Source: a virus. Taken from it: 27,597 bases of DNA. Shown here piece by piece: positions 2,486-18,936 of this stretch (positions are counted from its first letter, which is position 1; the number at the start of each line of letters is the position of its first letter). Location: IMG/VR virus record IMGVR_UViG_3300028025_003102, positions 1 to 27,597 of that record; one strand, 5' to 3'. Below the pieces are notes generated by a model that made no database searches, was not told the origin of the DNA, and saw nothing but the letters and a program-made list of their open reading frames with translations. The translations under genes and the position numbers were made by a program.

Positions 2486-3139
2486 ATGGCAACAAATAAC
2501 AATGGAAACCTGCTGGATTCAGCAGGAAACATCGCTGTCGACTTTGTATGGGGTAACTTTCCTCTACAGCCAAACGACCAGCGTCCAGACACAGCAACAG
2601 GTCGTCTAGACTTTGCTCTAGATAACCACGTAATTGCTCAAACAGGTTGGAATGGCTACCCTGGATACGAGCCAAACACCGATGGTGAGTATGTCTCAGG
2701 CACACCGTTCATCGTTGTACCTAACGTTCTAGGTCTAACCACTGCTTTGGCTTTGGATGCACTTAAGGATGCTGGTTACGTAACAGCTAACATCACTACT
2801 GCATCTGCTGCAACCAACACAGCTGGTGTAGTAACAGCAGCTTCTCGTACAGCAGGTTCTGGTGTTACAACCATTACTGACTCATCACACGGATTCGTTA
2901 CAGGCAACAAGGTAACAATCACTAGCGTAGATGCTTCTGTAAACGGAGTTGGCTATGTTGTTACCAAGCTAACCGACAACACCTTTACAATCACAACTAC
3001 AGCTACCACAGCGTTGGCTCTTACAGGCTTGACTGGTGGAGTAGTTGCAGTAGCTGGAACTATCAAGTCTCAGACAGTTGCTGCTGGTGCAGACAGCATC
3101 GCACTTGGCACCACAATCAGCATTACTCCTTGGGCTTAA
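2486..3139 (+). CDS. PASTA-domain protein with an inserted beta module
   Basis: A 217-residue protein. Residues about 1-70 are unrecognised (Asn, Asp and Gly rich, with FVWGNFPLQPNDQRPDT). A PASTA domain begins at about residue 77 (VVPNVLGLTTALALDALKDA) and finishes at about 189-215 (IKSQTVAAGADS, GTTISIT). Between the halves sits a Thr/Val-rich module (about 116-188) with SHGFVTGNKVTITSV, VNGVGYVV and NTFTITT. PASTA domains bind peptidoglycan fragments or act as beta modules on virion surfaces, so this may be a virion or decoration protein that touches the cell wall. ATG 2486 is chosen over an in-frame ATG at 2462, which overlaps the upstream gene and has no clean leader. Confidence 0.7.
   Translation: MATNNNGNLLDSAGNIAVDFVWGNFPLQPNDQRPDTATGRLDFALDNHVIAQTGWNGYPGYEPNTDGEYVSGTPFIVVPNVLGLTTALALDALKDAGYVTANITTASAATNTAGVVTAASRTAGSGVTTITDSSHGFVTGNKVTITSVDASVNGVGYVVTKLTDNTFTITTTATTALALTGLTGGVVAVAGTIKSQTVAAGADSIALGTTISITPWA
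2831..3049 (+). repeat. Recurrent beta module, copy 1 (inside PASTA)
   Basis: It encodes TAASRTAGSG, then SHGFVTGNKVTITSVD, SVNGVGYVVTKL, NTFTITT and TATTALALTGLTG. It is closest to copy 2 (12127-12360), which shares TAASRTAGS, the HG..xGN.V.IT core, the VNG turn and TATTALA.TGLTG. Codons differ at many synonymous positions between the two copies, so this is not a recent duplication. Confidence 0.75.
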
Positions 3140-3156
3140 GTCTTAGGAAGTAACTA

Positions 3157-3798
3157 ATGCCTAATCTCGAGGGAGTGACGCCTGGCGGCTATGATGATGC
3201 CGCAGCGTCCTCCCTTGAGAAGGGTATGACAGCCGATGCTGAAGGCAATCTTTTTTATCAGCAATTTCCAAACTCTAGGTATGCAGGACAATATAACCCC
3301 GTAGAGTATGACGAAATTGAGGGTAACCCAGAAGAACCCGCTCCACTTACAGATGTACCTACATCATCAACAAATGTTAGGCGTCCCCGCACAGTAGCTG
3401 CTGGTTATGACGAGCAAAGAAAAGTTCTTACTGTAATGTTCCGTGATGGAACTCTTTTTAATTATTACGACGTTGACCCGGGTACGTGGAAAACATTCCA
3501 CAACTCTTATTCTAAAGGTCCTATGTTGAACCTTTACAGCAAAGGCACTTACAGCCCTGGAGCGCTTTTGATGTCTCCTCACACCTACGGTCCAGCAGAT
3601 GTGTCGAATGTAAGCCCTGAAGTTTTAGCAACTATTTACCGTGTTGCAAGAGCAAGCCAATTCCGCTATGCTTCTAATAAGGGTACAGTGTACCGCACTG
3701 CCCAAGGTAAAGGCTTTTCAGCTCCTAAATCAAAAGGTGGTAGAGCACCAAAAAACTCTCCGCCTGCTGCAAAGGCACACAGACCCCACAAACCATAG
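3157..3798 (+). CDS. KTSC-domain protein
   Basis: A 213-residue protein. The middle (about residues 75-135) reads VAAGYDEQRKVLTVMFRDG, then NYYDVDPGTWKTF, then SKGPMLNLY, matching the KTSC domain (a YD...L.V.F..G..Y.Y.DV pattern), a small fold of unclear function found in phage and bacterial proteins. The N-terminal 70 residues are acidic and disordered-looking. The C-terminal 45 are Lys/Pro/Gly rich (GGRAPKNSPPAAKAHRPHKP). The start is supported by AGGAAG upstream. It lies between a probable surface protein and the packaging genes. Role unknown; a minor virion or assembly protein is possible. Confidence 0.7.
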   Translation: MPNLEGVTPGGYDDAAASSLEKGMTADAEGNLFYQQFPNSRYAGQYNPVEYDEIEGNPEEPAPLTDVPTSSTNVRRPRTVAAGYDEQRKVLTVMFRDGTLFNYYDVDPGTWKTFHNSYSKGPMLNLYSKGTYSPGALLMSPHTYGPADVSNVSPEVLATIYRVARASQFRYASNKGTVYRTAQGKGFSAPKSKGGRAPKNSPPAAKAHRPHKP

Positions 3799-3804
3799 GA
3801 ACAC

Positions 3805-4131
3805 ATGCCCAAGGTACACAACATCGGAAAACAACACTTTTTTCAATATATGCGGTTCCCTGCTCAATGGGGGCGTAAGATTGCAGTTAAAGGCTACACT
3901 CAAGAAATAAGAGAGCCCTTTAGAACCTCAGAGCCATGGATTATTAGGATGCCGTTCTACAGAGCCCTTATACTTGGTAAATGGACTGGTACACAACCAG
4001 ATGAAGAATCGGCACTACAAAACGCACTAAGAGGACGGATATTAACTGATGAAGATTTTGACAAGGAAAAAGGGTGGACTCCAGCCAAGTACGAAGCTGG
4101 AGAAAAGGGTGTCTGGGATTGGGACGTCTGA
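3805..4131 (+). CDS. Hypothetical protein
   Basis: 108 residues, rich in aromatic residues (HFFQYMRFPAQWGRKI, EPWIIRMPFYRALILGKW), with a C-terminal segment LTDEDFDKEKGWTPAKYEAG and a WDWDV end. AGGA precedes ATG 3805, six bases after the previous stop. No family was recognised. Its position just before the terminase gene and its compact globular composition suggest a real protein. A small-terminase role would fit the position but nothing in the sequence shows the expected DNA-binding helices. Confidence 0.6.
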   Translation: MPKVHNIGKQHFFQYMRFPAQWGRKIAVKGYTQEIREPFRTSEPWIIRMPFYRALILGKWTGTQPDEESALQNALRGRILTDEDFDKEKGWTPAKYEAGEKGVWDWDV

Positions 4132-4138
4132 TTTAATT

Positions 4139-4294
4139 ATGTGGGCTGAAAACGCCCTGTTTGTTATTGGTAAAGAAGTTACCCATCATCAACGCAATAA
4201 AAGTATGGACTCTCTTCTAGAGGCAGAGCTTGGTGCAGAAGCCTTACTTGCTATTGTTCGTGAGTTAAAGAAACGTGCTGAAAATGAATGGTGA
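4139..4294 (+). CDS. Small helical protein upstream of terminase
   Basis: 51 residues from ATG 4139 (MWAENALFVIGKEV), probably all helical, ending LLAIVRELKKRAENEW. An in-frame start at 4049 would overlap the previous gene by 83 bases with an atypical leader, so the later start, eight bases after the previous stop, is preferred. It overlaps the terminase start. No family was recognised. Confidence 0.5.
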   Translation: MWAENALFVIGKEVTHHQRNKSMDSLLEAELGAEALLAIVRELKKRAENEW

Positions 4295-5942
4295 TTACGA
4301 AGAAGAATATCGTGATGACGATGAACAATACGAGGATAACCCCTGGGCCCTAGATGACGAGGACGAAGACGAACAATTTGAGGAGATTACTCCTGAAATG
4401 TACGCCGAGGAAAGCCTCGATGAGTTTGAAGAGCTAGACGAAGAAGACGACCTAGACGAGTTTTCTCAAGATTTTGTTGACCGATTAATTGACAAAATGA
4501 TGCAATTTATGGTTGTGTTGGTTGGACACGACCTACACCCATATCAGAAGCCTTTAGCTAGAAGAATGATGGAATCTATCATCATTAACGACGGTGAAGA
4601 AATTACAGCTCTTGCTGCCCGTCAGTCAGGTAAGTCAGAAACAATTGCTGACACAGTATCTACTCTCATGGTTCTGCTTCCAAGACTTGCTAATATATAC
4701 CCAGAGCTTCTAGGCAAATATAAAGATGGTTTGATGGTGGGTCTATTTGCTCCTACTGAATCACAGGCTGAAACACTATTCAGCAGAACTGTAACTCGAC
4801 TTAGCTCTGAGCGAGCCCTAGATGTATTGAGCGACCCAGAGATTGATGATGTTGCCGCTAAGGTAGGTGGCGTTACCAAAATGATTAGGCTAAAGAAGTC
4901 AGGCAGTAGCCTCACAATGATGACTGCTAACCCACGAGCAAAGATTGAGTCTAAGTCGTTCCACCTTATCGTTATTGACGAATGTCAAGAAGCAGATGAC
5001 TTTATTGTGAATAAGTCTATCTCTCCTATGCGTGCCTACTACGCGGGTACCATGGTAAAGACTGGAACACCTACCACTTCTAAGAATAACTTTTATCGCT
5101 CTATCCAGTTAAATAGGCGTAGACAAACAGGTAAACGAGCTAGACAGAACCACTTCCAGTGGGACTGGAGAGACGTATCAAAATATAACGATAACTATAA
5201 TCGGTTCATTAAAAAAGAAACGTTACGTATTGGAGAAGATTCAGATGAGTTTCAGATGTCGTACAACTGCAAATGGCTACTTGAACGAGGAATGTTTGTT
5301 ACGAGTTCCATTATGGATGACCTTGGTGACACATCTCAAGAACTCGTCAAAGTCTGGCATCAAACCCCTGTTGTGGTCGGAGTCGACCCAGCTAGAAAAA
5401 TGGACTCCACTGTTGTTACAGTTGTCTGGGTTGACTGGGACCGTCCCGATGAGTTTGGCTATTTTGACCATAGAATCCTTAACTGGCTCGAAATCCAAGG
5501 AGACGACTGGGAAGAACAATACTTCCAAATAGTTAACTTCCTATCTAATTACGACGTACTAGCCATCGGAGTTGACGCCAACGGTGTTGGTGACGTAGTA
5601 GCTCAGCGTTTAAAGGTTCTTATGCCTCGTGCAGAAGTTATCCCTCTAACATCTAGCCAATCAGAGCAGTCTGGTAGGTTTAAGCACTTGCAAGCTTTGA
5701 TTCAAAGAGAGATGCTTTCTTTCCCAGCTCACGCAAAGACTAGAAGACTTAACTTGTGGAAGCGTTTTTACCAGCAAATGATTGATGCTGAAATTCAATA
5801 TAAAGGTAATAACTTTACTGTTGCTGCTCCTAGAGAAGCTTATGCACACGATGACTTTGTCGACAGCTTAGCTATTGCTACTTCTCTTACAAAAGAGCTT
5901 GTAATGCCTACTGTAGAAATTGGAACAAATCCTTTTTATTAA
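4284..5942 (+). CDS. terL: Terminase large subunit
   Basis: A 552-residue packaging motor. The ATPase domain has Walker A ARQSGKSE (about 112-119), Walker B LIVIDE (about 228-233) and coupling motif TGTPTTSKN (about 260-268). The RNase H-like nuclease domain shows Asp368 in GVDPA, Asp431 in IGVDANGVGD and the HDDFVDS motif (about 522-528). The enzyme translocates DNA into the prohead through the portal and cuts the concatemer. The first 60 residues are extraordinarily acidic (33 Asp/Glu), which is not usual for the family. GTG 4275 is an alternative start three codons upstream; both overlap the previous gene. Confidence 0.95.
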   Translation: MNGDYEEEYRDDDEQYEDNPWALDDEDEDEQFEEITPEMYAEESLDEFEELDEEDDLDEFSQDFVDRLIDKMMQFMVVLVGHDLHPYQKPLARRMMESIIINDGEEITALAARQSGKSETIADTVSTLMVLLPRLANIYPELLGKYKDGLMVGLFAPTESQAETLFSRTVTRLSSERALDVLSDPEIDDVAAKVGGVTKMIRLKKSGSSLTMMTANPRAKIESKSFHLIVIDECQEADDFIVNKSISPMRAYYAGTMVKTGTPTTSKNNFYRSIQLNRRRQTGKRARQNHFQWDWRDVSKYNDNYNRFIKKETLRIGEDSDEFQMSYNCKWLLERGMFVTSSIMDDLGDTSQELVKVWHQTPVVVGVDPARKMDSTVVTVVWVDWDRPDEFGYFDHRILNWLEIQGDDWEEQYFQIVNFLSNYDVLAIGVDANGVGDVVAQRLKVLMPRAEVIPLTSSQSEQSGRFKHLQALIQREMLSFPAHAKTRRLNLWKRFYQQMIDAEIQYKGNNFTVAAPREAYAHDDFVDSLAIATSLTKELVMPTVEIGTNPFY

Positions 5943-5946
5943 AAGT

Positions 5947-5976
5947 TTGAGTTAAGGCAGAAAAATAACTAATAAA
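5947..5976 (+). promoter_or_regulatory. Repeated 13-base intergenic motif, candidate promoter
   Basis: The 93-base gap 5943-6035 holds TTGAGTTAAGGCA (5947-5959), identical to 8503-8515 in the gap after the portal gene. TAATAA (5970-5975) lies 17 bases after TTGAGT, so a sigma-70-like promoter is possible. The rest of the gap is AT-rich and ends in a strong TTTAAGGAG ribosome site. Confidence 0.4.
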
Positions 5977-6035
5977 GCCCCAAACTAGTAAAGGAAATAC
6001 TCGAGTTTTCCACAATCAAATTTAAGGAGTTCCCC

Positions 6036-6431
6036 ATGGGCCTAGCACCAAACCCAATGTTCCCAGAACGCGCACCACAGGGCTATGAAATGAAGATGGC
6101 AGGCAACGAAGAACGTCGCGGACCACTTCGCTTTGAAGAAGGTATCGCTACTGATACTGACGTACCTACCGACTTCCAGAAGGGCATCATGAACGGCTTT
6201 GCAGCTGCTCCTGGTCGTCCTAACCGCAACGCTCCAGTTTGGCAGAAGCCAGCTGCTGAAACCATGTCAGAACGTGCACACGTAGGTTCTGCATCATGGA
6301 CAGAAGCACCTACCTTCCTTGGTGAATTTGCTCACGGTTCTTACTCACAGAACGCAGAGCAGGTTATTGAAACTAAGGTTGTTTCAGGTGGCCGCGTACA
6401 GCGTCTAAACCCAACAGTCGTAAACGACTAA
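6036..6431 (+). CDS. Hypothetical protein, probably structural
   Basis: 131 residues after a strong TAAGGAG site, with a candidate promoter in the gap upstream. It is rich in Pro, Gly, Arg, Glu and Ala, with no membrane segment (start MGLAPNPMFPERAPQGYEM). Its codon use (GGC, CGT, GCA, AAC) resembles the capsid gene and suggests high expression. It lies between terminase and portal. No family was recognised. A minor capsid or packaging accessory protein is the natural guess from expression signals and position. Confidence 0.6.
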   Translation: MGLAPNPMFPERAPQGYEMKMAGNEERRGPLRFEEGIATDTDVPTDFQKGIMNGFAAAPGRPNRNAPVWQKPAAETMSERAHVGSASWTEAPTFLGEFAHGSYSQNAEQVIETKVVSGGRVQRLNPTVVND

Positions 6432-6447
6432 TTTAAGAGTTTAACAA

Positions 6448-6483
6448 CCTAGCCCCACTGTGCATTAGTAGAGTGGGGTTAGG
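6448..6483 (+). other. 12-bp hairpin between genes
   Basis: CCTAGCCCCACT (6448-6459) pairs with AGTGGGGTTAGG (6472-6483) through a 12-base loop, with one G-T wobble. No T run follows, so it does not look like a classic intrinsic terminator. It may stabilise the 3' end of the upstream mRNA or separate expression of the abundant upstream protein from the portal operon. Confidence 0.6.
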
Positions 6484-6506
6484 AATGTTAAGTCTTGAGG
6501 AGCAAA

Positions 6507-6752
6507 TTGTCTGACGTCCCAGTTAATGAAAAGCTTTATGCCATGGTAGTAACCCAGGCCAAAGCTAGATACCGTATTTATCCGAGCCCAGGTGCATCGC
6601 ACTGGGTGCATCGTAGATATCTGGAATTGGGTGGCAAGTATATTGACTCTGAAGAAATTGCAGAGCGCAAGAGAATTATGAGAGCCTGGCAAGAAAAGAA
6701 AGCTCAGGCTCGTGGTCACCGCGACGATGATGACAAGAAGGATAGTAAGTAA
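6507..6752 (+). CDS. Small conserved-type phage protein upstream of portal
   Basis: 81 residues from TTG 6507 (MSDVPVNEKLYAMV), four bases after GAGGAG. A TTG at 6495 is possible but lies before that ribosome site. The core ARYRIYPSPGASHWVHRRY followed by LGGKYI resembles a YPS..A..W....Y...GG pattern I know from small proteins of many phages. The C-terminal half is a charged helix (EEIAERKRIMRAWQEKK) ending in an acidic and lysine stretch. Its stop overlaps the portal start as TAATG. Function is unknown; the position suggests a head or packaging role. Confidence 0.65.
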   Translation: MSDVPVNEKLYAMVVTQAKARYRIYPSPGASHWVHRRYLELGGKYIDSEEIAERKRIMRAWQEKKAQARGHRDDDDKKDSK

Positions 6753-8482
6753 TGTCATTTCTTGATTTTTCCCCACCAAGCTATAGAGCTTCGTCATCTG
6801 ACCTTACCATCAGCATCTCCCCTCTGGGTCTTGTAGAACTTGCTGATGAAGAGTTTGAGGTCCACGGTCCTCGTCTAAACCGTTATTCCCTAAACTGGGC
6901 CATGTATCTTGGCCACCACTGGGGCTACCGTCGTGAACAAGGTGAAATGCAGATTTCCCTTAACTATTACCGTGCGTTCATCGACTACATCGATAGATTT
7001 ACTTTTGGTAACGGAGTTCACTTCCGTTCCCCTAAAGCTACTGAGGCTATTGTTCCTGCTCGTCTAGAGCGTGTTTGGACTATTGATAACGACAAAATGC
7101 ATGTCCTACTGGAGATGGCCCAGCTTGGTTCTATCACTGGCGACTGCTTTGTAAAGATTGCTTATGAAGAAGCTTGGGAAGATAGCGTCGGTCGTTTGCA
7201 CCCAGGACGTGTCCGTATCCTTCCTTTGAACTCTGCGTTTGCTTTTCCTGAGTTTCACCCACACGATAGAAGCCGTCTTCTTAGATTTAAGCACAAGTAT
7301 CGTTTCTGGGGAACATCCCTGGAAGGTACCCGTCAGGTATTCACCTACACCGAAATTCTTACTGATGATGTAATTGAAGAGTATGTAAACGACGAGCTAA
7401 TTGACTCAAGACCAAACCCACTTGGTGTAATTCCTGTAGTCCACATCGCAAACATCCCGGTATCCGGTTCTCCTTGGGGATTGTCAGATGCTCATGATAT
7501 TATTTCAATCAACCGTTCATATAATGAAATTGCTACTGACGTAGCTGACATCATTAACTACCACGCTGCGCCGGTAACAGTTATTGTTGGTGCGAAGCAG
7601 GGTAACCTTGAAAAGGGTGCAAAGAAAGTCTGGGGAGGTCTTCCTAAAGACGCTCAGGTATTTAACCTTGAAGGTGGTTCTGCTGGTCTGACTGGAGCTA
7701 TGCAGTACATGCAGATGCTAAAGCTGTCTATGCATGAAATGATGAACGTTCCTGAGTCTGCACTTGGACAGGCACAGCCTATCTCTAACACCTCTGGTGT
7801 TGCACTTTCTATTCAGTTCCAGCCTTTGATGAACCGTTACGCTCAGAAGTCATCTGTTTATGGTAGAGGACTTGAAAGAATCAACGAACTGGTTCTTATC
7901 AACCTTGCTATTAAAGAACCAGAAACTTTCATGCACAACCCAGAGACTGACGGCCCTATTTCAGCAGGTCAACTTGACCAGCTAGACCCTAATGACCCAC
8001 TTACTTATGTGACATACGCGCACTTCCCACCACCACTTCCTCTAGACAAGCTAGTTCTTCTTAACGAACTTCAGCAAAAAATGTCTATGGGTCTTGAGTC
8101 TAAAGAAGGTGCACTACGTGCTCTTGGTGAAGAGTTCCCACTTGAGAAGATTCAAGAAATTCGTTCTGAACTTATGGATGACGCTAAGGGTGAAGGTGCC
8201 CTTAACCTCATTAAGGCACAGGTTCAAAAACAACTTATGGATATTACCGGAATGATGGTAGGACCTGATGGTACTGCTACTCCTATGGACCCTATGATGA
8301 TGGGTAATGGAGACGTTATGGGTGACGGAGTACTAGGTGCTCCAGGTGAAAGTGCTGACCCACAGGCAGACGCAGCTATCTCGCAAGAGCAATTAGCAGC
8401 TGAAGACCAGATAAGACAGACTTTGATTAGCGAAGCTTATGGACAAAACATTCCATCAAGAAGTTCAGTTGACAGAGATTAA
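6752..8482 (+). CDS. Portal protein
   Basis: A 576-residue protein with hallmarks of SPP1 gp6-like portals: an N-terminal alpha/beta domain (LNRYSLNWAMYLGHHWGY), a stem and wing core, DAHDIISINRSYNEIATDVAD, and the conserved region MMNVPESALGQAQPISNTSG followed by a long helix. The C-terminus is Gly/Met/Asp rich and probably flexible. The dodecameric portal forms the DNA entry vertex, docks the terminase and nucleates the prohead. The ribosome site AAGGA and the TAATG junction couple it to the preceding gene. The scaffold and capsid genes follow. Confidence 0.9.
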   Translation: MSFLDFSPPSYRASSSDLTISISPLGLVELADEEFEVHGPRLNRYSLNWAMYLGHHWGYRREQGEMQISLNYYRAFIDYIDRFTFGNGVHFRSPKATEAIVPARLERVWTIDNDKMHVLLEMAQLGSITGDCFVKIAYEEAWEDSVGRLHPGRVRILPLNSAFAFPEFHPHDRSRLLRFKHKYRFWGTSLEGTRQVFTYTEILTDDVIEEYVNDELIDSRPNPLGVIPVVHIANIPVSGSPWGLSDAHDIISINRSYNEIATDVADIINYHAAPVTVIVGAKQGNLEKGAKKVWGGLPKDAQVFNLEGGSAGLTGAMQYMQMLKLSMHEMMNVPESALGQAQPISNTSGVALSIQFQPLMNRYAQKSSVYGRGLERINELVLINLAIKEPETFMHNPETDGPISAGQLDQLDPNDPLTYVTYAHFPPPLPLDKLVLLNELQQKMSMGLESKEGALRALGEEFPLEKIQEIRSELMDDAKGEGALNLIKAQVQKQLMDITGMMVGPDGTATPMDPMMMGNGDVMGDGVLGAPGESADPQADAAISQEQLAAEDQIRQTLISEAYGQNIPSRSSVDRD

Positions 8483-8502
8483 TGTTTTATTTTAAGACAT
8501 TA

Positions 8503-8553
8503 TTGAGTTAAGGCACAAAATAGTAATATTTTGCGTTTTACTTATCATATAAC
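8503..8553 (+). promoter_or_regulatory. Regulatory gap before the scaffold-capsid genes
   Basis: The 133-base gap 8483-8615 is AT-rich and contains TTGAGTTAAGGCA (8503-8515), identical to 5947-5959. It also contains TTGCGTTTT (8531-8539), sharing TTGCGTTT with the candidate promoter at 1955, and a possible -10 box TATAAC (8548-8553). The best -35/-10 pairing is unclear. A promoter here would serve the heavily needed scaffold and major capsid genes. Confidence 0.4.
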
Positions 8554-8615
8554 AGTTAAGGTCTAGTGGCATTAATTCGGAAAACGACCATCGAGAATGA
8601 AAAGAGGTTAGCCTT

Positions 8616-9383
8616 ATGGCTGATTTGGAAAACACCCCAGAAGTAGTTGAATCTACTATTTACACCCCTGAAGATGCATTTGCAGAGGAAACACTATTGC
8701 CAAACACTGACAAGGTAGCTGAAGCAATTCAGAAAGCCCGTGCTCAGGAAAAAGCAAAGCTATATCCTCAAGTAGAAAAGCTACAGGAAGAAATTGCTTC
8801 TCTCCGTTCAGAGAAGCATGAACGCGAAGCTAAGGACGCAGAACGTAAAGCACAGCGTGCAGCACGTGAAGCCCAAGCCGCAGTGGAGCGTAAGAAGCAA
8901 GAAGAATCAGAACTTGAAGTTCGTGACTTGCTTGCAAAGAAGGAAGAGGAGTGGGCTGAGAAGCTTAACTCTGAACGCCAAGAGCGTGAGAAGGCATTTG
9001 CCCTTCTAGAGCGCGAGCGTGAGTTCCAGGAGCTATCGGCATACCGCCAGCAGCGTCTTGAAGCAGAACGCGACAATATCATTCCAGAACTTGTTGACCT
9101 AATTTCTGGTAATACCCGCGATGAAATCGAGCAGAGCATCGCTGGTCTAAAAGAACGCTCTGCGAAAATCTTCGACTCTGTTGCGCAAGTTGCACAGCAA
9201 AGTCGCAAGGAAATGGTAGGAACTCGAATCACGAGCCCTGCCTCTGGACCCCTCGACAACGACTCGGACTCTCGTACGTACTCGCCTGATGACATTTCTA
9301 AAATGTCTTTGTCAGACTATGCGAAGAATCGTTCCAAGTTACTTGGAAACAGCAAAAACAGTGGACAGGGATTGTTCGGGTAA
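8616..9383 (+). CDS. Capsid assembly scaffolding protein
   Basis: A 255-residue, highly charged protein between portal and major capsid. An acidic N-terminal 35 residues are followed by a long Glu/Lys/Arg/Ala/Gln coiled coil (about residues 38-155) and a further helical segment to about 200. The C-terminus is Ser/Asp/Gly rich with a short helical motif (SPDDISKMSLSDYAKNRSKLL) that probably docks on the capsid protein. Long central helices, no catalytic motif and this gene order are typical of scaffolds, which template prohead assembly and then leave. No protease domain is visible, so exit rather than proteolysis is more likely, unless a protease lies outside the window. Confidence 0.8.
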   Translation: MADLENTPEVVESTIYTPEDAFAEETLLPNTDKVAEAIQKARAQEKAKLYPQVEKLQEEIASLRSEKHEREAKDAERKAQRAAREAQAAVERKKQEESELEVRDLLAKKEEEWAEKLNSERQEREKAFALLEREREFQELSAYRQQRLEAERDNIIPELVDLISGNTRDEIEQSIAGLKERSAKIFDSVAQVAQQSRKEMVGTRITSPASGPLDNDSDSRTYSPDDISKMSLSDYAKNRSKLLGNSKNSGQGLFG

Positions 9384-11193: not shown

Positions 11194-12528
11194 ATGGCTA
11201 ACATCGACAGCCTAATCTCACGCGTTAGAGTAGAACTCGGCGACCTTGGTAAGAGTTTTGTTACCCAGTTTGTTGCTGATGGTTCAACCAACCGTTTTAA
11301 ATTACACTACGCTCCCTTAGACTCAACCACTGTAACTGTGCAGAGAAAGCTAATATCTAACGGAACTGTTTACGATATTACTAATAACGCCCATGTTGAG
11401 GAATCTACTGGCGTTCTCGTCCTTCTTCAAAATGATGGAGTAACTCCCCTAGTTCCTGCTGATGGCGACGAGCTTACTGTTGCTGGTAACTACTACAGAT
11501 ACTTTACTGGAGCTGAACTCACTCAGCTTATCAATGACGCTATATCTGAGCACTCGTCAAATGCTACCGATAGCACTGGTAGAAAAATAAACCTAGCCAC
11601 CCTTCCTAGTAGCGAAGAGTACCCAGTTACTGTTTATGCCACTACATTAGCCCTTTATACTTTGGCTACCGATGCTGCCTTTGATATTGATATTGCAGCC
11701 CCAGATGGTGTGACTATTCCTCGTACTCAGCGTTACCGTCAGCTGATGGAGATGGTTCAAACTCGCCATGCTCAATATAGAGAGCTTTGTGCCCTGTTGG
11801 GAGTCGGACTTTACCGCATTGAAGTCTTTGACTTAAACAGAATTTCTAAGATGACTAACCGACTTATCCCTAGGTACGTTCCTCAGGAAGTTGATGACAG
11901 GTCTTACCCAGAAAGAGTTAAGCTTTCAGAGCCTACTCTTGGCAATAAACCGCCTGCTTGGCCTACAGAGGCTGGTGAGCTCAGCTCTTACCAGGGACTA
12001 GACTTTAAAGAAACCCTTGTATTTAATGGAAATTACGCAGGTAAAACGTTTGTTGCCAAGGTACTAAACCAAAGAAGCTCAGTACTTGTAGTTCAAAACT
12101 TTACTTTAGAGGTTGCTACTACTGGAACTGATGTTATTACTGCTGCTTCTAGAACTGCAGGAAGTACGACAATTACTCTTACAACTAGTGTTGCACATGG
12201 GTTAACTGATGGTAATGTTGTTGCAATTACTGATGTAGACAGCACTGTTAATGGGATAGGCACTATTGCTACAATAGTTAATGCCACACAGTTTACAGTT
12301 ACTGGAACAGCGACTACCGCATTAGCCCGAACAGGACTTACAGGGCAGGTTGAAACTAGTGTGAATAAGAACTACACCTTCACCCTATCTCTCACACAAG
12401 ACCAAACTCTACGTACTGCAGAGAGAACTTACTGGTCTCTTTCTACTATTGATGCGTTCACAGGTGAGCAGGAAGAGATTAAGGGCGGTAAATTCTTCAC
12501 TGTAAGAGCTAGAACGACGGTACTATAA
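11194..12528 (+). CDS. Probable head-tail connector with beta-module insertion
   Basis: 444 residues. The N-terminus MANIDSLISRVRVELGD is typical of connector/adaptor proteins that bind the portal. Residues about 20-100 form a beta region (FVTQFVADGSTNRFKLHYAP) and about 105-205 a helical core with YRQLMEMVQTRHAQYRELCA. From about 270 a BppU-like beta domain begins (LDFKETLVFNGNYAGKTFVA) and resumes at 391-444 (NYTFTLSLTQDQTLRT, then GGKFFTVRARTTV). Between them lies the recurrent module (about 312-389). A TTGGAGGA site precedes the ATG. The connector role is inferred from gene order and the N-terminus. Confidence 0.65.
   Translation: MANIDSLISRVRVELGDLGKSFVTQFVADGSTNRFKLHYAPLDSTTVTVQRKLISNGTVYDITNNAHVEESTGVLVLLQNDGVTPLVPADGDELTVAGNYYRYFTGAELTQLINDAISEHSSNATDSTGRKINLATLPSSEEYPVTVYATTLALYTLATDAAFDIDIAAPDGVTIPRTQRYRQLMEMVQTRHAQYRELCALLGVGLYRIEVFDLNRISKMTNRLIPRYVPQEVDDRSYPERVKLSEPTLGNKPPAWPTEAGELSSYQGLDFKETLVFNGNYAGKTFVAKVLNQRSSVLVVQNFTLEVATTGTDVITAASRTAGSTTITLTTSVAHGLTDGNVVAITDVDSTVNGIGTIATIVNATQFTVTGTATTALARTGLTGQVETSVNKNYTFTLSLTQDQTLRTAERTYWSLSTIDAFTGEQEEIKGGKFFTVRARTTVL
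12127..12360 (+). repeat. Recurrent beta module, copy 2 (inside connector-like protein)
   Basis: It encodes ITAASRTAGSTTITLTTS, AHGLTDGNVVAITDVDS, TVNGIGTIATI, TQFTVTG and TATTALARTGLTG. It interrupts the beta domain of its host protein between FTLEVATTG and NKNYTFTLSLT. It is the closest match to copy 1. Confidence 0.75.
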
Positions 12529-12529
12529 A

Positions 12530-12655
12530 ATGCCAATATATCCAGAAAAGGACATATACTTATTAACAGAGGTTAATTCTGTACTTGATACCTCTTTGCT
12601 TAAACAACCTGATGAACAATACGATGACACTGACTTTGGAATAATTAATGGCTAG
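12530..12655 (+). CDS. Small acidic protein
   Basis: 41 residues, MPIYPEKDIYLLTEVNSVLD through QPDEQYDDTDFGIING, ending TAG. It starts one base after the previous stop and overlaps the next gene by eight bases, so it sits in a coupled chain. The coding-like composition and exact fit between two genes argue that it is real. Function unknown. Confidence 0.55.
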   Translation: MPIYPEKDIYLLTEVNSVLDTSLLKQPDEQYDDTDFGIING

Positions 12656-13613
12656 AAAAACACTGATACAAAATAGGCGAGATACTGCGTCTAACTGGAC
12701 AACTGTTAATCCCGTTCTTGCTGTGGGGGAGTTTGGTGTAGAAACCGATACAAACAAATTTAAAATTGGTGATGGCACTACTCTTTGGCAAGACCTTTCT
12801 TATCAAGGTGGTTCTGGCCTGCCTAGTGGTGGAGACGCTGACCAGATTCTAACAAAGCTATCATCTTCAGACTATGATGTTGCTTGGGTAGACGCTGCTG
12901 GGGTAACTACTTCTGCTTCAACTGTTAAGCATATTGTTAGAAACACAACAGGAGCAACGTTAACTAAAGGAACAGTTGTTTACACTTCTGGTGCTAACGG
13001 AACTAACATTCTGGTTGCAAAGGCCCTAGCAACCAACGACCAGCTTTCAGCCCAAACATTAGGATTTGTTGAAAACAATATTGCCAATAATGCTAATGGC
13101 TATGTAGTTACAAGCGGTATTGTTACTGGAGTAGACACCTCTTCTGCAAATGCTGGAGACCCTATTTGGCTATCTTCAGCCACAGCTGGTGGTGTGGTAT
13201 TTGGGCTTGGGAATAAACCTCAGGCACCGAGCCATTTAGTGTACATGGGTGTGGTTACCAAAAAGAGCTCAGATGGCGAAGTTTTTGTTCATATCTCTAA
13301 TGGATGGGAACTAGACGAGCTACACAACGTTAAGATTACATCTGTCCAAGATAATGATATTCTAGTCTATGACAGTACTACAGACCTTTGGCAAAACCAG
13401 CAGCTTAGTGCGACTACAGGAATTTCGTTTACAAGCTCACATTCTGGGTATGTGTGGAATGTTATTCATAACTTAGGTTATAGACCATCAGTTACTACTA
13501 CGGATAATGCTTTGACTCCAAATGTAATTGAGGGAACTGTAGTACATATTGATGCAAATTCTTTAACAGTAACATTTACAGCAAATATAGGTGGAACCGT
13601 CTACCTATCATAG
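12648..13613 (+). CDS. Tail/neck fibre-like protein
   Basis: 321 residues. The N-terminal module (about 5-50: LIQNRRDTASNWTTVNPVLA, VGEFGVETDT, FKIGDGTTLWQDL) is a widespread phage fibre N-terminus. The middle is beta-rich (LTKGTVVYTSGANGTNILVA, ITSGDPIW-like turns). The C-terminus ends with a tip-like domain (WNVIHNLGYRPSV, SLTVTFTANIGGTVYLS). Such proteins form trimeric appendages that bind host surfaces. It is the first of several fibre-like genes in series, which suggests a composite fibre or several appendages. Which virion site it occupies is not shown. Confidence 0.7.
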   Translation: MARKTLIQNRRDTASNWTTVNPVLAVGEFGVETDTNKFKIGDGTTLWQDLSYQGGSGLPSGGDADQILTKLSSSDYDVAWVDAAGVTTSASTVKHIVRNTTGATLTKGTVVYTSGANGTNILVAKALATNDQLSAQTLGFVENNIANNANGYVVTSGIVTGVDTSSANAGDPIWLSSATAGGVVFGLGNKPQAPSHLVYMGVVTKKSSDGEVFVHISNGWELDELHNVKITSVQDNDILVYDSTTDLWQNQQLSATTGISFTSSHSGYVWNVIHNLGYRPSVTTTDNALTPNVIEGTVVHIDANSLTVTFTANIGGTVYLS

Positions 13614-13625
13614 TAAGGAAATAAA

Positions 13626-15479
13626 ATGGCAAGACTCTTTTTGACTAATATTGATTTAAAAGGTAATCAATTAGTTAACGTAGTACTACACAACAATGCT
13701 AACGCGACGGGCCTTAGCACCAGCAATGGTTCTATGTACTATGACACGACTAGTAACAAGTACCAATTTAGACAAAACGGTGCTTGGGTAGGTTACCTCC
13801 TAGACACTACTAGACTTGACACAATTACCGCTCCTACGGGTAGCGTTAGCTTAAACAGCCAAAAAATTACTAACCTTCTAGACCCTACTTCTGCTCAAGA
13901 TGCTGCAACTAAGGCATATGTCGATGGTCTTGCTCAAGGACTTGACGTTAAAGCGTCTGTAAGAGCTGCGTCTACTGTTGCTGGTGGAAATATTACACTA
14001 GTAACTACTCAGACTATTGACGGTGTTTCACTATCTGCTGGTGACCGAGTTTTGGTTAAAAACCAAACTACAGGTTCAGAAAATGGTATTTGGGTTGTTG
14101 CTTCAGGAAACTGGGCTAGAGCTGATGACGCAGTACAGGGGAAACTAACTGCTGGAGCGTTCGTATTTGTTGAAGAAGGTACCGTAAACGCGGACTCTGG
14201 TTGGGTACTTACCAATAACGGTACTGTTACTGTTGGAACAACAGCTCTAACTTGGGACCAGTTCTCTGGTGCGGGTCAAATTACTGCAGGTAATGGTCTT
14301 ACTAAGTCTGGTAACACAATTAACTTTGTTGGAGCAACTCTTTCTGGTCTTACAATTAACGTAGACGATGTTGCAGTTAACCCAGCACAACTTTGGATTG
14401 GTACAAGCAACGTAGTACTAGCAACTACTGGTGCGGCTCAGGCACTTACTGGTATTACTTCTGTTACTGGTACTACTGCTGATATGTCAGTTCAACCAGC
14501 TACCAGAGCTTCAGGAACTGGGTATCACCAAAACATATCTGGTGGTCTTTCGTCTTCTGGTGCTGGTGGTCAACTTCGCCTATACGGTGGTAACGGAACT
14601 AGCGGTAATGGTGGAGCCGTACTTATTGATGGAGGTACAGGAACAGCCATTGGTACGGTTAGCATTGGTACAAGTTCATCAACAATTAATATTGGTCAAG
14701 CATCTGTATCTACTACTTCTATTACAGGAACTGTAAAGCTTTCTGCATTAACTACTAACGGTTTTGTAAAAACAATAAACTCTGATGGTACTCTTGCAAT
14801 TGATACTACTGTAGTAACTACCGCTAATAAAATAAGTGCTCTTTCAGCTACTACTTCGGCAGAACTTGCTGGTGTAATATCTGATGAAACTGGTTCTGGA
14901 GTTCTAGTATTTGGTACTGCTCCTACAATTACCCTTCCTAATATTAACAACGTTAGATTTGGGTACACTACTACTGTAACTTCTGGTACTACACAGGCAA
15001 TTGACGTAAACGCTAACTACAGACGTTACTACACTGGCTCAACTGCACAAACAATTACTCTTCCAGATGTAACAACTCTTACTTTGGGCCACTCTTACGA
15101 ATTCCACAACAACAGCACTGCTGTTCTAACTATCCAGTCTTCTGGTGCTAACCTAGTAGTTACTGTCCCACCACTAACAACGGTTCTTATTACCTGTATT
15201 CTTATTACTGGTACCACAGCTGCTTCGTGGGACTTTGACTTTACTGGAACTAACTCAGTTCCAGTTCGCAAGGTTGCTGGAACTGTAGCACTTACTGCGG
15301 CTACTCCTGCTGCAATTACTCACAACCTAGCTACTCGTGATGTAAACGTGCAGATGTGGGAAACCTCCTCAAGCTTACCTACACAGGTAGTTGAAATGGA
15401 TGTTACAAACACCAGCACAACCCAAGTCACAGTAACTTCATCACTAACAGGTACTTATTACTATGTAATTATGGGATAG
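13626..15479 (+). CDS. Tail fibre protein
   Basis: 617 residues with classical fibre modules. The N-terminal LTNIDLKGNQLVNV and GSMYYDTTSNKYQFRQNGAW lead to ITNLLDPTSAQDAATKAYVD. A domain at about 107-220 (TQTIDGVSLSAGDRVLVKNQ, then ENGIWVV, FVFVEEGTVNADSGWVLTN) recurs in many phage fibres. A Gly/Thr/Ser repeat shaft follows (about 230-440), then a C-terminal tip with ITHNLATRDVNVQMWETSS and VTVTSSLTGTYYYVIMG. It probably forms a homotrimeric receptor-binding fibre. TAAGGA lies before the ATG. Confidence 0.8.
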   Translation: MARLFLTNIDLKGNQLVNVVLHNNANATGLSTSNGSMYYDTTSNKYQFRQNGAWVGYLLDTTRLDTITAPTGSVSLNSQKITNLLDPTSAQDAATKAYVDGLAQGLDVKASVRAASTVAGGNITLVTTQTIDGVSLSAGDRVLVKNQTTGSENGIWVVASGNWARADDAVQGKLTAGAFVFVEEGTVNADSGWVLTNNGTVTVGTTALTWDQFSGAGQITAGNGLTKSGNTINFVGATLSGLTINVDDVAVNPAQLWIGTSNVVLATTGAAQALTGITSVTGTTADMSVQPATRASGTGYHQNISGGLSSSGAGGQLRLYGGNGTSGNGGAVLIDGGTGTAIGTVSIGTSSSTINIGQASVSTTSITGTVKLSALTTNGFVKTINSDGTLAIDTTVVTTANKISALSATTSAELAGVISDETGSGVLVFGTAPTITLPNINNVRFGYTTTVTSGTTQAIDVNANYRRYYTGSTAQTITLPDVTTLTLGHSYEFHNNSTAVLTIQSSGANLVVTVPPLTTVLITCILITGTTAASWDFDFTGTNSVPVRKVAGTVALTAATPAAITHNLATRDVNVQMWETSSSLPTQVVEMDVTNTSTTQVTVTSSLTGTYYYVIMG

Positions 15480-15488
15480 TATTAACCC

Positions 15489-17750
15489 ATGGCAAGAAAT
15501 ATAGTAGCGTCTTATGATTTTAAGACGTCAATCACGGTGCAAGCGTTAGCGACTTTTAACGCTAATATAAGCGCATTTGGAACATCAACTTTTTGGGCTA
15601 ACCAACAGCTCTCTCTTGCTGTCCGTAACGGTGTAAACGCTGTAACTAACCTCGTTGAGTACTCTGCTAACGGTGCAACAGTTTTAGGTGGTAGAACCAC
15701 TAATGGTCTTTTATGGGCTGGAACTACTTCTGCCCCAACACTAGGTCATGCTTACAATCTAACTTCAGCTGCGTATGTGTCAACGTCTCAGGCTACTTTT
15801 ACAGCAAGCACTACTAGGTCTACAAACCCTTACGCTGTTAACCAAAAGATTATTGTTTCTGGTGTTACTGGTGGAACATACAACGGGTCGTTTATTATTA
15901 CCGCTATTGGTGGTTCTTCTGGTGCTTGGACTGCAACAGTTACTTCCCCATCTGGAACAACACCATTCACAAACACTTCGGGTACTGGTGGAACAGGCTC
16001 TATTGAATCAGCCGCATTTATCAAATCATTAAGCGAAGGTTCTGCTCCACTGACACTACAGTTGGCGGGGGCTTCTGGTACCTCTACTGATTTCCTGAGA
16101 ATGTATGACGGTAGCAATAACTTAAGAACCTACTTTAGCGGTGCTGGAGATTTAGTTGTTCCTGCTATTTCTGCTACGTGGTCTATTACATCATCTGCTC
16201 AGGATGTATCCGTAAACGCCATGCGAACAAGAACGTCTCTTGCATCAGGCTATAGGGCAAACCTACAAACTTGGGAAAGTTCTTCTACTGTTCTTGCAGG
16301 TATGACTTCAGCAGGAAAGTTCTTTACTGGTTCTACCATAGGAATAAACAGTGCTGTTGGCGGAACTATTCAGTCTATTGCTACAGGTGCTAACCCACTC
16401 GTAACTATGGCTTCGGCACATGGGTTGGCTGTTGGAGACGTGGTTGTTTTAGCTGGTACCACAAGCGGAACGTATAACGGAACTTTCTTTGTTGCTACTA
16501 CTCCAGCAGCAACTACTTTCACTATTACTTCCGCGTTGACTGCTGGGCAGGCAGGGGCTGCTGGAACTGTGTCAGTGGGTGCACAGGTAGCTATTACTGC
16601 TCGTTCGGCGGGTATTATAGGTCTGATTGTGCGTGGTGTAGCAAGCCAATCGGCAGATTTACAACAATGGCAGAATTCTTCAGGAACAGCAACCAGTTCT
16701 ATTGCTGCGTCAGGACTTATTCAAACGTCTACTGGTTTATCCCTTACAGGAATCAACTCACCTATTGTTCTAAATAGTAGCATGGGGTCATCTGGTGATG
16801 TTCTAACGTCTAATGGAACAGCAAACACGCCTACTTGGCTCACTTCGACTGGTAGCGGAAACAATGTTAGGGCAACATCTCCAACATTTGCTACATCCAT
16901 AATTGGTTCTGCATCTATGGATGTGTTTAACACTGTAAGCACAACAATTAATGCTTTTGGTGCTGCTACAACAATGAATCTAGGAACTGCTGCAAACACA
17001 GTAACCATAGGACAATCAGGTACATTAGGAACTGGAACAAACACCTTTTCGTTGTTTACTGGCTCTTCTACCACTGGAACAACGCAAAACATTAACATTG
17101 GCACTGGGCAGTTTTCTCTAGCCACACAGAATATCAATATTGGCACTAACGCAACTAGTGGTTTAACTGCAACTCGCAATATTAATATTGGCACATCAGC
17201 ATCTACTGGTGCTACAACTACAACAACAATAAATGGAACCCTAGTTGCTTCACTAGGTAAAAAAGTTATTCAAACTGTTACTCTATCTGGAACTTCAGCT
17301 ATTTCCTTCACATCTATTCCTGCTGGTTATAGGGATTTAGAAATAAGAATTTTAGCAACTACAGCCGTCTCAACTAGCACAAGCTTAACTATGACTGTTA
17401 ATGGGTTAACTACAAACATCTATGCAACTGTTCATCAATATGTTAACGGTGTTAGCCCTTCGACAATTACTTATTCCCAGCAAACAGGTGCAACTTCAGC
17501 AAACTTATCGGCTCCTGTAACGTTTGGAGCTACGGCTAGCTCATCACTAACCTACACACTTAATGACTATAGAAGCGATTCTTTTAAAAACGGCACTGTT
17601 ACTTGGATGGGTGGACCTAGCTCTGGAACCTATTATCATGGCACTGGAGGAATATTTATAAAAAGTACCGCTGCTATTACTCAGATAGATATTGCTGTTG
17701 GTGGTACTGGTGGTATTACAGGTAGTGCTGTTTTGATAGGAGTTTATTAA
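15489..17750 (+). CDS. Long fibre-like protein with two beta modules
   Basis: 753 residues, the largest gene here. The shaft has about four copies of a 24-25 residue unit (L..W.NSS....A.....G.....G): about 54-78, 201-225, 258-281 and 390-414. Two recurrent beta modules sit between units (about 95-176 and 290-364). A NINIGT repeat shaft follows (about 533-570). The C-terminal domain (about 590-753: KKVIQTVTLSGTSAISFTSI, then YRDLEIRILATTAVS, GTYYHGTGGIFIKS) is compact and beta-rich, resembling a fibre tip. Likely a trimeric appendage. Its ribosome site is weak, so coupling to the upstream gene is possible. Confidence 0.75.
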   Translation: MARNIVASYDFKTSITVQALATFNANISAFGTSTFWANQQLSLAVRNGVNAVTNLVEYSANGATVLGGRTTNGLLWAGTTSAPTLGHAYNLTSAAYVSTSQATFTASTTRSTNPYAVNQKIIVSGVTGGTYNGSFIITAIGGSSGAWTATVTSPSGTTPFTNTSGTGGTGSIESAAFIKSLSEGSAPLTLQLAGASGTSTDFLRMYDGSNNLRTYFSGAGDLVVPAISATWSITSSAQDVSVNAMRTRTSLASGYRANLQTWESSSTVLAGMTSAGKFFTGSTIGINSAVGGTIQSIATGANPLVTMASAHGLAVGDVVVLAGTTSGTYNGTFFVATTPAATTFTITSALTAGQAGAAGTVSVGAQVAITARSAGIIGLIVRGVASQSADLQQWQNSSGTATSSIAASGLIQTSTGLSLTGINSPIVLNSSMGSSGDVLTSNGTANTPTWLTSTGSGNNVRATSPTFATSIIGSASMDVFNTVSTTINAFGAATTMNLGTAANTVTIGQSGTLGTGTNTFSLFTGSSTTGTTQNINIGTGQFSLATQNINIGTNATSGLTATRNINIGTSASTGATTTTTINGTLVASLGKKVIQTVTLSGTSAISFTSIPAGYRDLEIRILATTAVSTSTSLTMTVNGLTTNIYATVHQYVNGVSPSTITYSQQTGATSANLSAPVTFGATASSSLTYTLNDYRSDSFKNGTVTWMGGPSSGTYYHGTGGIFIKSTAAITQIDIAVGGTGGITGSAVLIGVY
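15771..16016 (+). repeat. Recurrent beta module, copy 3
   Basis: It encodes AYVSTSQATFTASTTRS, then NQKIIVSGVTGGTYNGSFII, SGAWTATVTSPSG and a Gly/Thr-rich exit. It keeps the GVTGGTYNGSF turn and the final strand but lacks the HGL motif, so it is the most divergent copy. It lies between shaft units of the fibre. Confidence 0.55.
16356..16580 (+). repeat. Recurrent beta module, copy 4
   Basis: It encodes GGTIQSIATGANPLVTMASA, HGLAVGDVVVLAGTTSGTYN, GTFFVATTPAATTFTITSAL and GAAGTVSVGA. It has the full HGLAVGDVV core and the YNGTF turn. It is flanked by shaft units at 258-281 and 390-414 of the fibre protein. Confidence 0.7.
17085..17195 (+). repeat. NINIGT shaft repeats
   Basis: Three copies of a 21-base unit encoding [QR]NINIGT start at 17085, 17127 and 17175, spaced 42 and 48 bases. 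Synonymous differences occur between copies. They form part of a Gly/Thr-rich beta shaft in the fibre and are coding, not a CRISPR array. Confidence 0.8.
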
Positions 17751-17962
17751 TGCCAAATATTACTGAAGTAAACTGTGAAACTGGTGAAGTTTTAGAACGT
17801 GAAATGACGCCAGAAGAGCAAGAACTACATGATTCCATGAGAGCAGACGGTGAGCAATTTGCCCAAGCAGCTGCTGAGGAAATGGCAAATAAAGCATCAG
17901 CATTAGCAAAGCTACAGGCACTAGGCCTGACAGAAGAAGAAGTTAAGGCTCTATTGGGCTAG
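17750..17962 (+). CDS. Small acidic helical protein after the fibre gene
   Basis: 70 residues. It starts at TAATG with the fibre stop. MPNITEVNCETGEVLEREMT is followed by a Glu/Gln/Ala helix and the end ALAKLQALGLTEEEVKALLG. This C-terminal pattern is frequent in small phage proteins encoded next to tail-fibre genes. A fibre-associated or chaperone role is inferred from position only. Confidence 0.65.
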   Translation: MPNITEVNCETGEVLEREMTPEEQELHDSMRADGEQFAQAAAEEMANKASALAKLQALGLTEEEVKALLG

Positions 17963-18003
17963 GTTAAGCCTTACAATTAAAGAAGATTAGATAAGGATTT
18001 ATT

Positions 18004-18936
18004 ATGCCTGCAAATACCGTACTTAAGCTTAGAGCTGGTACTGAAGCTGCCTGGGTGGCCACTGCTAAAAGCAAGACTGTTTCTAGCGCATCTGTTGTTG
18101 GAACAACTGACACAGTTGCTAGGTATGTTTCTACCGCACACGGGTTTGCTGTTGGAAACACAGTAACAATCACTGGGATTACCGTTGTAAGCGGAAACAA
18201 TCCTTACAATATTGCTGGTGGAGTAATCTCAGCTGTTGCTGCTGACTATTTTGATATTAAATTAACTGATGGAACTACTGGAGGTAGTACCAACTCAGGA
18301 GGCACTGCAGTTCTTGTGGTTCTTGCTAAGGGGGAAGCCGCTGTAGAAACGGATACTAACAGATTAAAAATTGGGGATGGCGAGACTACCTGGGGTAATC
18401 TTGATTACGTAAATAAGTCTTTATTTTATGTTTTAAATTCTGCTGAAAATATTGCAGGAACATCTAATGAGCAAAATTTATTTGATAATAAGTTTTCATT
18501 AAAAGAAAGTTCATCTTATTCATTTGAAATTCAAGCAATAATACTATGTGCTACAACTACTGCAAGAACTCTAAAGTTTGGCTTTGAGCAAACTGGAATG
18601 ACCGCGTGGGCAGATGTTAGATACCAGTGGACCTATGGTACTAGAGAAAACGGTACTACCCACTATGCTACTGAAGCAAAAACCATTACTGGAAATAGCC
18701 CTGCAGCTGATGGATTAATCCAGCTAGGACCTATTACTGATGGTACTGATGATGTTATTTTCTTTAATATAAAAGGAATAATTAGAACTAATGCGGGACA
18801 ATCTTTCTTTCAACCTAGAGTTCAGTTTAGTAACAGCCCTGGAACTGGCACCACGTTGCTTAGCGGTAGTTATGTAAGTATTGACCTTGTTGGTGATTCA
18901 CCATTTGTAAACCCCGTTTCTTGGGGAGCTAACTAA
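18004..18936 (+). CDS. Fibre-like protein whose N-terminal domain is split by a beta module
   Basis: 310 residues. LKLRAGTEAAWVATA (about 8-22) and VVLAKGEAAVETDTNRLKIG (about 105-124, then DGETTWGNL) are the two halves of the fibre N-terminal motif seen whole at 12648-13613. The recurrent module (about 25-105) separates them. Residues 135-310 are a compact beta domain (SYSFEIQAIILCATTTARTL, then RYQWTYGT, FFNIKGIIRTNAG, LLSGSYVSIDLVG) of virion surface type. AAGGA lies upstream of ATG 18004. Its stop overlaps the next start (TAATG). Confidence 0.7.
   Translation: MPANTVLKLRAGTEAAWVATAKSKTVSSASVVGTTDTVARYVSTAHGFAVGNTVTITGITVVSGNNPYNIAGGVISAVAADYFDIKLTDGTTGGSTNSGGTAVLVVLAKGEAAVETDTNRLKIGDGETTWGNLDYVNKSLFYVLNSAENIAGTSNEQNLFDNKFSLKESSSYSFEIQAIILCATTTARTLKFGFEQTGMTAWADVRYQWTYGTRENGTTHYATEAKTITGNSPAADGLIQLGPITDGTDDVIFFNIKGIIRTNAGQSFFQPRVQFSNSPGTGTTLLSGSYVSIDLVGDSPFVNPVSWGAN
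18076..18318 (+). repeat. Recurrent beta module, copy 5 (inside fibre N-terminus)
   Basis: It encodes TTDTVARYVSTAHGFAVGNT, VTITGITVVSGNNPYNIAGG, VISAVAADYFDIKL and a TGGSTNSGG exit. It interrupts the RAGTEAAW...VVLAKGE..ETDT fibre motif. Confidence 0.7.

Follow-up and report, generated by a model that had tools for sequence, protein, structure and literature searches.

Two small beta-barrels of known structure, the endosialidase barrel (PF12195; phi92 4hiz, K1F) and the FCCH domain of ubiquitin E1 (PF16190), are the closest described relatives of an element that recurs in the virus record IMGVR_UViG_3300028025_003102, whose 27,597 bases were analyzed in full and are called the window here. 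Both known barrels are inserts, the first in the beta-propeller of endosialidases and the second in the adenylation domain of E1. Immunoglobulin-like (Ig-like) domains on phage virions, reportedly described by Fraser et al. in 2006, offer a parallel in behavior. According to passages of one paper, such Ig-like domains are thought to interact weakly with surface carbohydrates (PMC9230969). Passages of two others describe domain mosaicism, in which protein fragments are shuffled in receptor-binding and baseplate proteins (PMC10684548), and list End_beta_barrel and Mtd_N among the domains of receptor-binding proteins (PMC9230537). The element in the window is a six-stranded barrel of approximately 80 residues, and we consider it probable that it is a mobile module of the endosialidase-barrel/E1-FCCH fold, traded as a cassette, that makes contact with glycans.

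An initial annotation of the window had described five segments as copies of one beta module. All five exist and lie in the reading frames given for them, with ends slightly wider by structure models and profile envelopes (2816-3061 to 18064-18321 for the first to the last). The copies, their host proteins, and a paralog of one host are as follows.

2486..3139, + strand: P1, 217 residues from the ATG at 2486; PASTA domain split by copy 1 (Pfam PASTA, 3.1e-7)
2816..3061, + strand: copy 1, residues 111-192 of P1, six-stranded barrel nested in the PASTA domain
11194..12528, + strand: P2, 444-residue neck/head-completion protein with an N-terminal gp13-like part and a C-terminal beta-sandwich
12121..12363, + strand: copy 2, residues 310-390 of P2, barrel nested in the C-terminal sandwich
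12648..13613, + strand: intact Mtd_N paralog (Mtd_N 2.1e-14, profile positions 1-37 uninterrupted)
15489..17750, + strand: P5, 753-residue fiber-like repeat protein with copies 3 and 4
15738..16016, + strand: copy 3, in P5; the weakest copy, lacking the HG motif (profiles, E 0.036 and 0.085)
16341..16589, + strand: copy 4, in P5, apparently between fiber repeat elements (profiles, E 1e-14 and 5e-13)
18004..18936, + strand: P6, 310 residues; Mtd_N domain split by copy 5
18064..18321, + strand: copy 5, in P6, nested in Mtd_N (profiles, E 2e-5 and 5e-5)

Copies 1 and 2 have the fold of the endosialidase barrel, and homology to it is seen at the profile level. Because no propeller, endosialidase family, or catalytic domain appears in the Pfam or PHROG matches of P1, P2, P5, and P6, the window proteins are not endosialidases. 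Unlike in those enzymes, the barrel here lies in PASTA, neck, Mtd_N, and fiber proteins, in five copies, and is swapped at a fixed site; the sialic acid link is a feature of the endosialidase system. The E1 FCCH domain has the same fold and is structurally further away than the endosialidase barrel, and no E1 family other than FCCH is found in the Pfam matches of the host proteins. Like Ig-like domains, the module is an accessory domain of unrelated proteins, absent from some homologs and exchanged between phages. It differs from them in that its best matches are barrels, which speaks against an Ig sandwich fold (the absence of an Ig-like structure from the matches is by itself no proof), in being nested in host domains, and in that cassette exchange at one fixed site is seen at the DNA level. 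The initial annotation had proposed a mobile surface domain comparable to Ig-like domains, and this comparison holds as an analogy of behavior, with a fold that is probably different.

Promiscuous accessory domains on virions are already known; what is new is the fold, the nesting in unrelated domains, and the fixed-site cassette exchange. No FCCH-like or endosialidase-barrel module has been described as a mobile phage domain in the open-access papers covered. The main text of PMC10684548 is without FCCH, beta-barrel, endosialidase, or PASTA, and the passages of PMC13370021 contain no such module. PMC11603213 was rejected as a source on FCCH domains, "FCCH" in its passages being a fold-change symbol.

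Insertion of the barrel into host domains

The module lies inside other domains, at loops: in PASTA, in Mtd_N, in the C-terminal sandwich of the neck protein, and apparently in fiber repeats. Homologs or paralogs that lack it occur for three host types. The relatives of the window proteins are uncultured IMG/VR contigs, given here as L numbers.

The P1 model aligns to the PASTA structure 3m9g over 63 residues with a root mean square deviation (rmsd) of 1.0 A (Z 8.1, span 74..217); as the span minus the 81 module residues equals the 63 that align, copy 1 is nested in the PASTA domain. A complete 146-residue P1 homolog, L303, has an unbroken PASTA domain and no module. Among 89 nonredundant PASTA homologs, profiles detect the module in 87 (with two or three copies in five of these), L303 has none, and L266 ends before the site. 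The homolog sets were the best 80 of 170 and the best 80 of 322 relatives, so that module-free PASTA homologs may be undersampled. Some P1 orthologs contain more: open reading frames (ORFs) in L144 (9842-10951) and L146 (5130-6452) encode further modules in their N-terminal part in addition to the PASTA one, and the orthologs in L010, L012, and L015 have two modules in tandem at the PASTA site.

The P2 model aligns over 1..203 to 9lu4_A (Z 10.2), a chain of the T4 gp13-gp14 neck complex that is presumably gp13, judged by its numbering, and also to KHP30 7wmp_m (Z 10.8). Toward the other end, 256..442 aligns to 8hqz_Q (Z 9.0, 104 residues, 3.6 A) and the C-terminal domain to 7qg9_J (Z 8.9, 103 residues, 3.5 A), these being tail-tip or baseplate proteins of T5 and DT57C; since about 103 residues align over the span 256..442, the alignment skips copy 2 as an insert. 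A Pfam LtfC-like beta-sandwich is matched by 11 of 51 P2 homologs at E<0.1. Empty sites are common in this family: 47 of 61 complete neck homologs, 340-369 residues long, have no module, and 14 have one or two (12 of 59 when L067 and L068, with a late-starting match, are not counted). In L067 and L068 the module is placed in the N-terminal hairpin, and in L017 two modules start in a different loop, which together with the copy 2 site makes three module sites in one protein family.

In P6, positions 14-37 of the Mtd_N profile match only at residues 105-128, and the first half reads at about residues 1-20; this split arrangement recurs in L150, L002, L006, and L003. The paralog at 12648..13613, in which profile searches found no module, provides an empty-site comparison within the same window. 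The possibility that a diversity-generating retroelement acts on the Mtd_N proteins was considered and dropped, because whole modules and not single bases are replaced; no retroelement search was made.

P5 has no Pfam match at E 1 and no PHROG match at E 0.1. Its repeats were read by eye; their layout is common to L152 and L208, copies 3 and 4 apparently sit between repeat elements, and a G...QTADLQQW-type element is interrupted by the module in L208 and by the first module of L153. Copy 4 is 78% identical in amino acids to a module of the large fiber in L153. That fiber (ORF 285-8630) has 2,782 residues, an intact N-terminal Mtd_N domain, and six module copies.

The hosts thus differ in their domains (PASTA, T4 gp13-like neck, Mtd_N, and fiber repeats), as the initial annotation had it, and homologous hosts do not always contain the segment, given the 47 of 61 neck proteins and 1 of 89 PASTA proteins without it and the intact Mtd_N paralog. 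The module-free homologs suggest that the module may be dispensable for assembly.

Cassette exchange at the PASTA site

At the PASTA site, whole cassettes have been replaced between phages that are otherwise nearly identical. The alignment of contigs L084 and L112 spans 6,257 columns at 94.9% identity. Among its 100-column blocks, only the three covering the module fall below 60% identity; a further one, within the N-terminal portion of the module's gene, stands at 67%, and the remaining blocks are at least 84%. Identity is perfect for more than 80 bases before and more than 100 bases after the module, and for the single pair with a base-by-base alignment, the breakpoints are about 20 bases or less from the module ends. 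The window itself gives a similar picture against L073, with a blastn alignment that breaks at 2827 and resumes at 3032, which is the module. In L119 and L125, the modules are 93% identical and the host genes 60%.

Over the 1,225 pairs formed by the 50 PASTA-protein genes of the P1 alignment (A1), the correlation between the nucleotide identities of host and module is 0.16, compared with 0.70 for the two halves of the host. Host identity is at least 0.80 in 209 pairs, with module identity of 0.55 or less in 116 of these and at least 0.75 in 32. Conversely, of the 48 pairs with module identity of at least 0.80, 16 have host identity of 0.65 or less and 28 have at least 0.75. Codon-shuffled modules are 32% identical. 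These counts cover A1 only, and the pairs are not independent events: many loci share contigs, and only identical ORFs were merged before counting. A1 holds the window and 49 of 73 listed homologs. The 24 omitted are the empty L303, the multimodule L144, L146, L010, L012, and L015, and 18 others picked by hand, several of which had long or divergent modules.

Between proteins, the closest cross-class module pairs, with one artifact set aside, are 78% and 77% identical in amino acids (both between fibers), followed by 70% for P1 of L146 against a fiber of L068 and 65% for P1 of L086 against the neck protein of L016. Cross-class pairs top out at 78%, so the sample supports movement between proteins, but not recent movement. 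Between copies 1 and 2, identity over 78 codons is 58% in amino acids but 55% in nucleotides, and the spread is therefore old, as had been claimed. A 100% pair between L009 2-259 and L010 was not counted as a transfer, L009 2-259 being probably a truncated P1. By PHROG match, 45 modules include 16 assigned to a virion structural family, 7 to major tail, and 5 to tail fiber; the commonest match (19 of 45) is phrog_9998, which has no named function.

Mechanistically, the N and C termini of the module probably lie close together, which would allow insertion into a turn with the host fold left intact. The module may have spread from protein to protein via old duplication or recombination, and replacement at a single site may proceed via homologous recombination in the conserved codons that flank the module. 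The interpretation of the segments as a mobile domain is supported by these results, which add two elements that the initial annotation did not have: the module is nested within host domains, and it is exchanged as a cassette.

Homology of the five copies and fold of copies 1 and 2

The copies were compared by BLOSUM62 local alignment, with the number of 1,000 shuffles reaching each score as the control. Copies 1 and 2 score 198, copies 1 and 4 score 74, copies 2 and 4 score 84, and copies 3 and 4 score 81, none of them reached by any shuffle; the scores of 75 for copies 4 and 5, 67 for copies 1 and 5, and 65 for copies 2 and 5 were reached by 2, 10, and 16 shuffles, respectively. For each of the seven, none of the 458 scores obtained with real 80-residue windows outside the module, from eight proteins of this phage, is as high. 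Copy 3 is at chance against copies 1, 2, and 5 (122, 749, and 234 of 1,000 shuffles), in keeping with its earlier description as the weakest. The claim of five copies of one module thus stands above chance for copies 1, 2, 4, and 5, and copy 3 is marginal, joined to the others via copy 4 only.

With filters off, an iterated profile from copy 4 finds copies 1, 2, 4, 5, and 3 at E 2e-22, 4e-20, 1e-14, 2e-5, and 0.036, and one from copy 2 finds them at 1e-22, 5e-18, 5e-13, 5e-5, and 0.085. Because these profiles may have taken in window copies during iteration, the shuffles and the match of copy 2, as a single sequence, to copy 1 (E 1.1e-15) are the cleaner evidence. A profile of PASTA-site modules only finds copy 2 at 7.7e-10 and copy 5 at just 0.023 (best domain). 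Searches by tblastn with whole P1 and with copies 4 and 2 against annotated phages gave no match; this is not evidence of absence, because the low-complexity filter probably masks these sequences.

Could the segments instead be native to their host proteins and alike through convergence of Thr/Gly-rich beta sequence? The chance-level scores of copy 3, the large composition-bias corrections on the profile matches, and the failure of narrow profiles to find copies 3 and 4 would fit such an origin, but the empty sites contradict it for copies 1, 2, and 5, copies 1 and 2 share one fold, and each of the seven pair scores exceeds every non-module score. We regard convergence as very improbable.

AlphaFold models were made for P1 and P2, and hence for copies 1 and 2 only, with alignments of 50 and 51 sequences; the P2 alignment (A2) is the window plus 50 of 57 homologs, omitting L017, L026, L038, L052, L055, L063, and L144. 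For P1, the predicted template modeling score (pTM) is 0.68, with a predicted local distance difference test (pLDDT) score of 76-96 from residue 71 on, 88-96 in ten-residue blocks of the module, and poor values in the first 70 residues; for P2, the pTM is 0.44, with module blocks at 85-93. The six strands are nearly equal in length and spacing in the two models, at 114-121, 127-132, 142-146, 154-161, 166-170, and 177-188 in copy 1 and at 312-320, 326-331, 342-346, 354-361, 366-370, and 377-388 in copy 2. These two segments, then, have the same strand pattern and also the same best PDB match, phi92 endosialidase 4hiz_C (copy 1: Z 11.9, 1.7 A over 81 residues, 24% identity; copy 2: Z 11.9, 1.7 A over 80 residues, 30% identity). 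K1F endosialidase (1v0e/3gvj/3gvk/3ju4) is next, with Z 10.9-11.7, and the rmsd values for endosialidase barrels are 1.7-1.9 A. The resemblance to FCCH noted in the initial annotation is borne out as a fold, with Uba6 7sol_A at Z 9.9 and 9.8 (2.0 A over 75 and 74 residues). Weaker barrel matches, which may reflect a common arrangement only, were to 9jlf_E 16-97 (Z 7.8), a phage head-to-tail interface protein, and 8rbs_K 427-533 (Z 7.2), a marine algal virus capsid protein. A viral structure library gave 26 matches (E<=0.001) to the whole P1 model, including a baseplate wedge, gp6, and endosialidase, and lower down a short tail fiber and a sheath. These were not counted as module copies, because the aligned range is absent and some rmsd values are large (9.8 A for the wedge).

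The sequence relationships agree, and the endosialidase barrel is the closer relative in sequence as well as in structure. A profile of the module alignment (A3, 45 of 60 listed modules) matches 4hiz at 1.6e-6, "Tail protein gp15" 10lj at 4e-5, and K1F endosialidase 1v0e at 2.7e-4. PF12195 (End_beta_barrel) is matched at E<0.1 by 9 of the 45 modules, at best 9e-6, and in 10 of 50 P1 homologs, at best 1.1e-4; it is not among the matches of the window's own copy 1. PF16190 (E1_FCCH) is matched at E<0.1 by 11 of the 45, at best 5.7e-6. Copy 1 itself matches E1_FCCH at 3.8e-5, with 24.1 bits in the whole protein and 26.7 bits as the module alone; the best score given elsewhere is 27.8 bits (L144), and the Pfam gathering score of 29.5 is not reached. 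Thr, Ala, Gly, and Val are abundant in the modules, whose only near-invariant positions are G37 and N50.

Possible role of the module and its setting

The most likely role is that of a surface-exposed accessory domain with weak glycan binding, resembling the K1F barrel. Passages of a study on K1F describe its barrel as one of three polysialic-acid sites and as a hotspot of host discrimination, in which changes at S460, S468, and G504 discriminate host strains, and also as largely permissive to substitution (PMC12632334). The A3 profile alignment places S460 at the T that follows V-x-I and S468 at N50; this mapping, made by hand with a deduced offset of 244, is a lead only and may reflect structure only. 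By analogy with Ig-like domains, exposed loops of the module may make weak contact with cell-surface or environmental glycans, and swapping modules would retune adhesion while leaving assembly unchanged. The data taken together suggest an interchangeable surface-contact module.

A ligand-free alternative is that the barrel serves mechanically or as a spacer, stabilizing or spacing virion proteins, with alleles that drift or are swapped neutrally. The bland composition and the structural look of the near-invariant positions would suit a spacer, as would the large tolerance of the K1F barrel to substitution (PMC12632334) and the naming of virion stability, in passages of PMC9230969, as a possible role of domains added to sheath proteins. 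Yet wholesale allele replacement in near-identical phages exceeds the need of a neutral spacer, 47 of 61 complete neck proteins manage without the module, and its nearest relative of known function binds polysialic acid, so that we judge a spacer to be possible but rather unlikely. The replacement of distinct module types at one site with constant flanks would also be expected if the module were a variable surface epitope, with swapped alleles evading a host-derived or environmental recognizer instead of binding a receptor. Nothing in this analysis bears on that idea directly, we know of no recognizer for phages in this setting, and we give it little credence.

Several observations weigh against a mobile, glycan-contacting module. 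The PASTA site is occupied in 87 of 89 homologs, and insertion there is therefore old. The initial annotation spoke of four virion proteins, and for P1 (2486-3139), a place in the virion is putative at most. The glycan role of the module is an inference. An approximately unbiased (AU) test rejects one shared tree for host and module, but it also rejects the control host split and is for that reason not used as proof. The relatives in the exchange analysis are metagenomic contigs, and a chimeric assembly could give the appearance of a single swap, but hardly of 116 pairs. At E 1e-3, profiles built from copy 3, 4, or 5 as a single sequence find none of the other copies in the window, iteration started from copy 5 does not extend beyond its five orthologous modules, and the PASTA-site-only profile finds neither copy 3 nor copy 4. 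The pTM of 0.44 makes the domain arrangement of the P2 model uncertain, the E1_FCCH scores are under the Pfam cutoff wherever bits are given, and the near-invariance of G37 and N50 may be structural.

If a mobile barrel with glycan contact is nonetheless the right reading, phage proteins have, in addition to Ig-like domains, a second accessory fold spreading among them, and the evidence is unusually clear in combining nested insertion and empty sites with the replacement, seen at the DNA level, of a cassette between phages that are nearly identical. The module also offers a glycan-contact hypothesis for stretches inside several PHROG families and reveals natural permissive insertion sites in phage proteins. 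More tentatively, and with the doubt leaning against it, tailed phages may have a general plug-and-socket arrangement in which interchangeable 80-residue barrels fit standard loops of virion proteins, cassettes trade, and many members are hidden in poorly annotated families; alleles would then pass through conserved codons at each socket and tune adhesion to cells or to particles, with the assembly parts untouched.

The gene content of the window is typical of a contractile-tailed phage. It encodes a tail sheath (PHROG 5e-44, Pfam 2.3e-8), a baseplate hub is also matched, and a terminase, a portal, and a major capsid protein are assigned by position and ORF reading only. The nearest named records for P2 are six Streptomyces phage records, with 36-37% identity over about residues 1-241, and in one Streptomyces phage, the gene of the P2 homolog is the fourth after that of the major capsid protein. 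The repeat protein at 13626-15479 has a match to a "head decoration" PHROG (9e-50) over its first 262 residues and contains no module by a family profile search of the window. By ORF reading, a run of small, very Lys-rich proteins lies at 19766-22557, between the fiber and tail genes, with an HNH-like protein inside it at 21180-21461; an HNH endonuclease at 22576-22986 (PHROG 1.3e-7) adjoins the Lys-rich genes.

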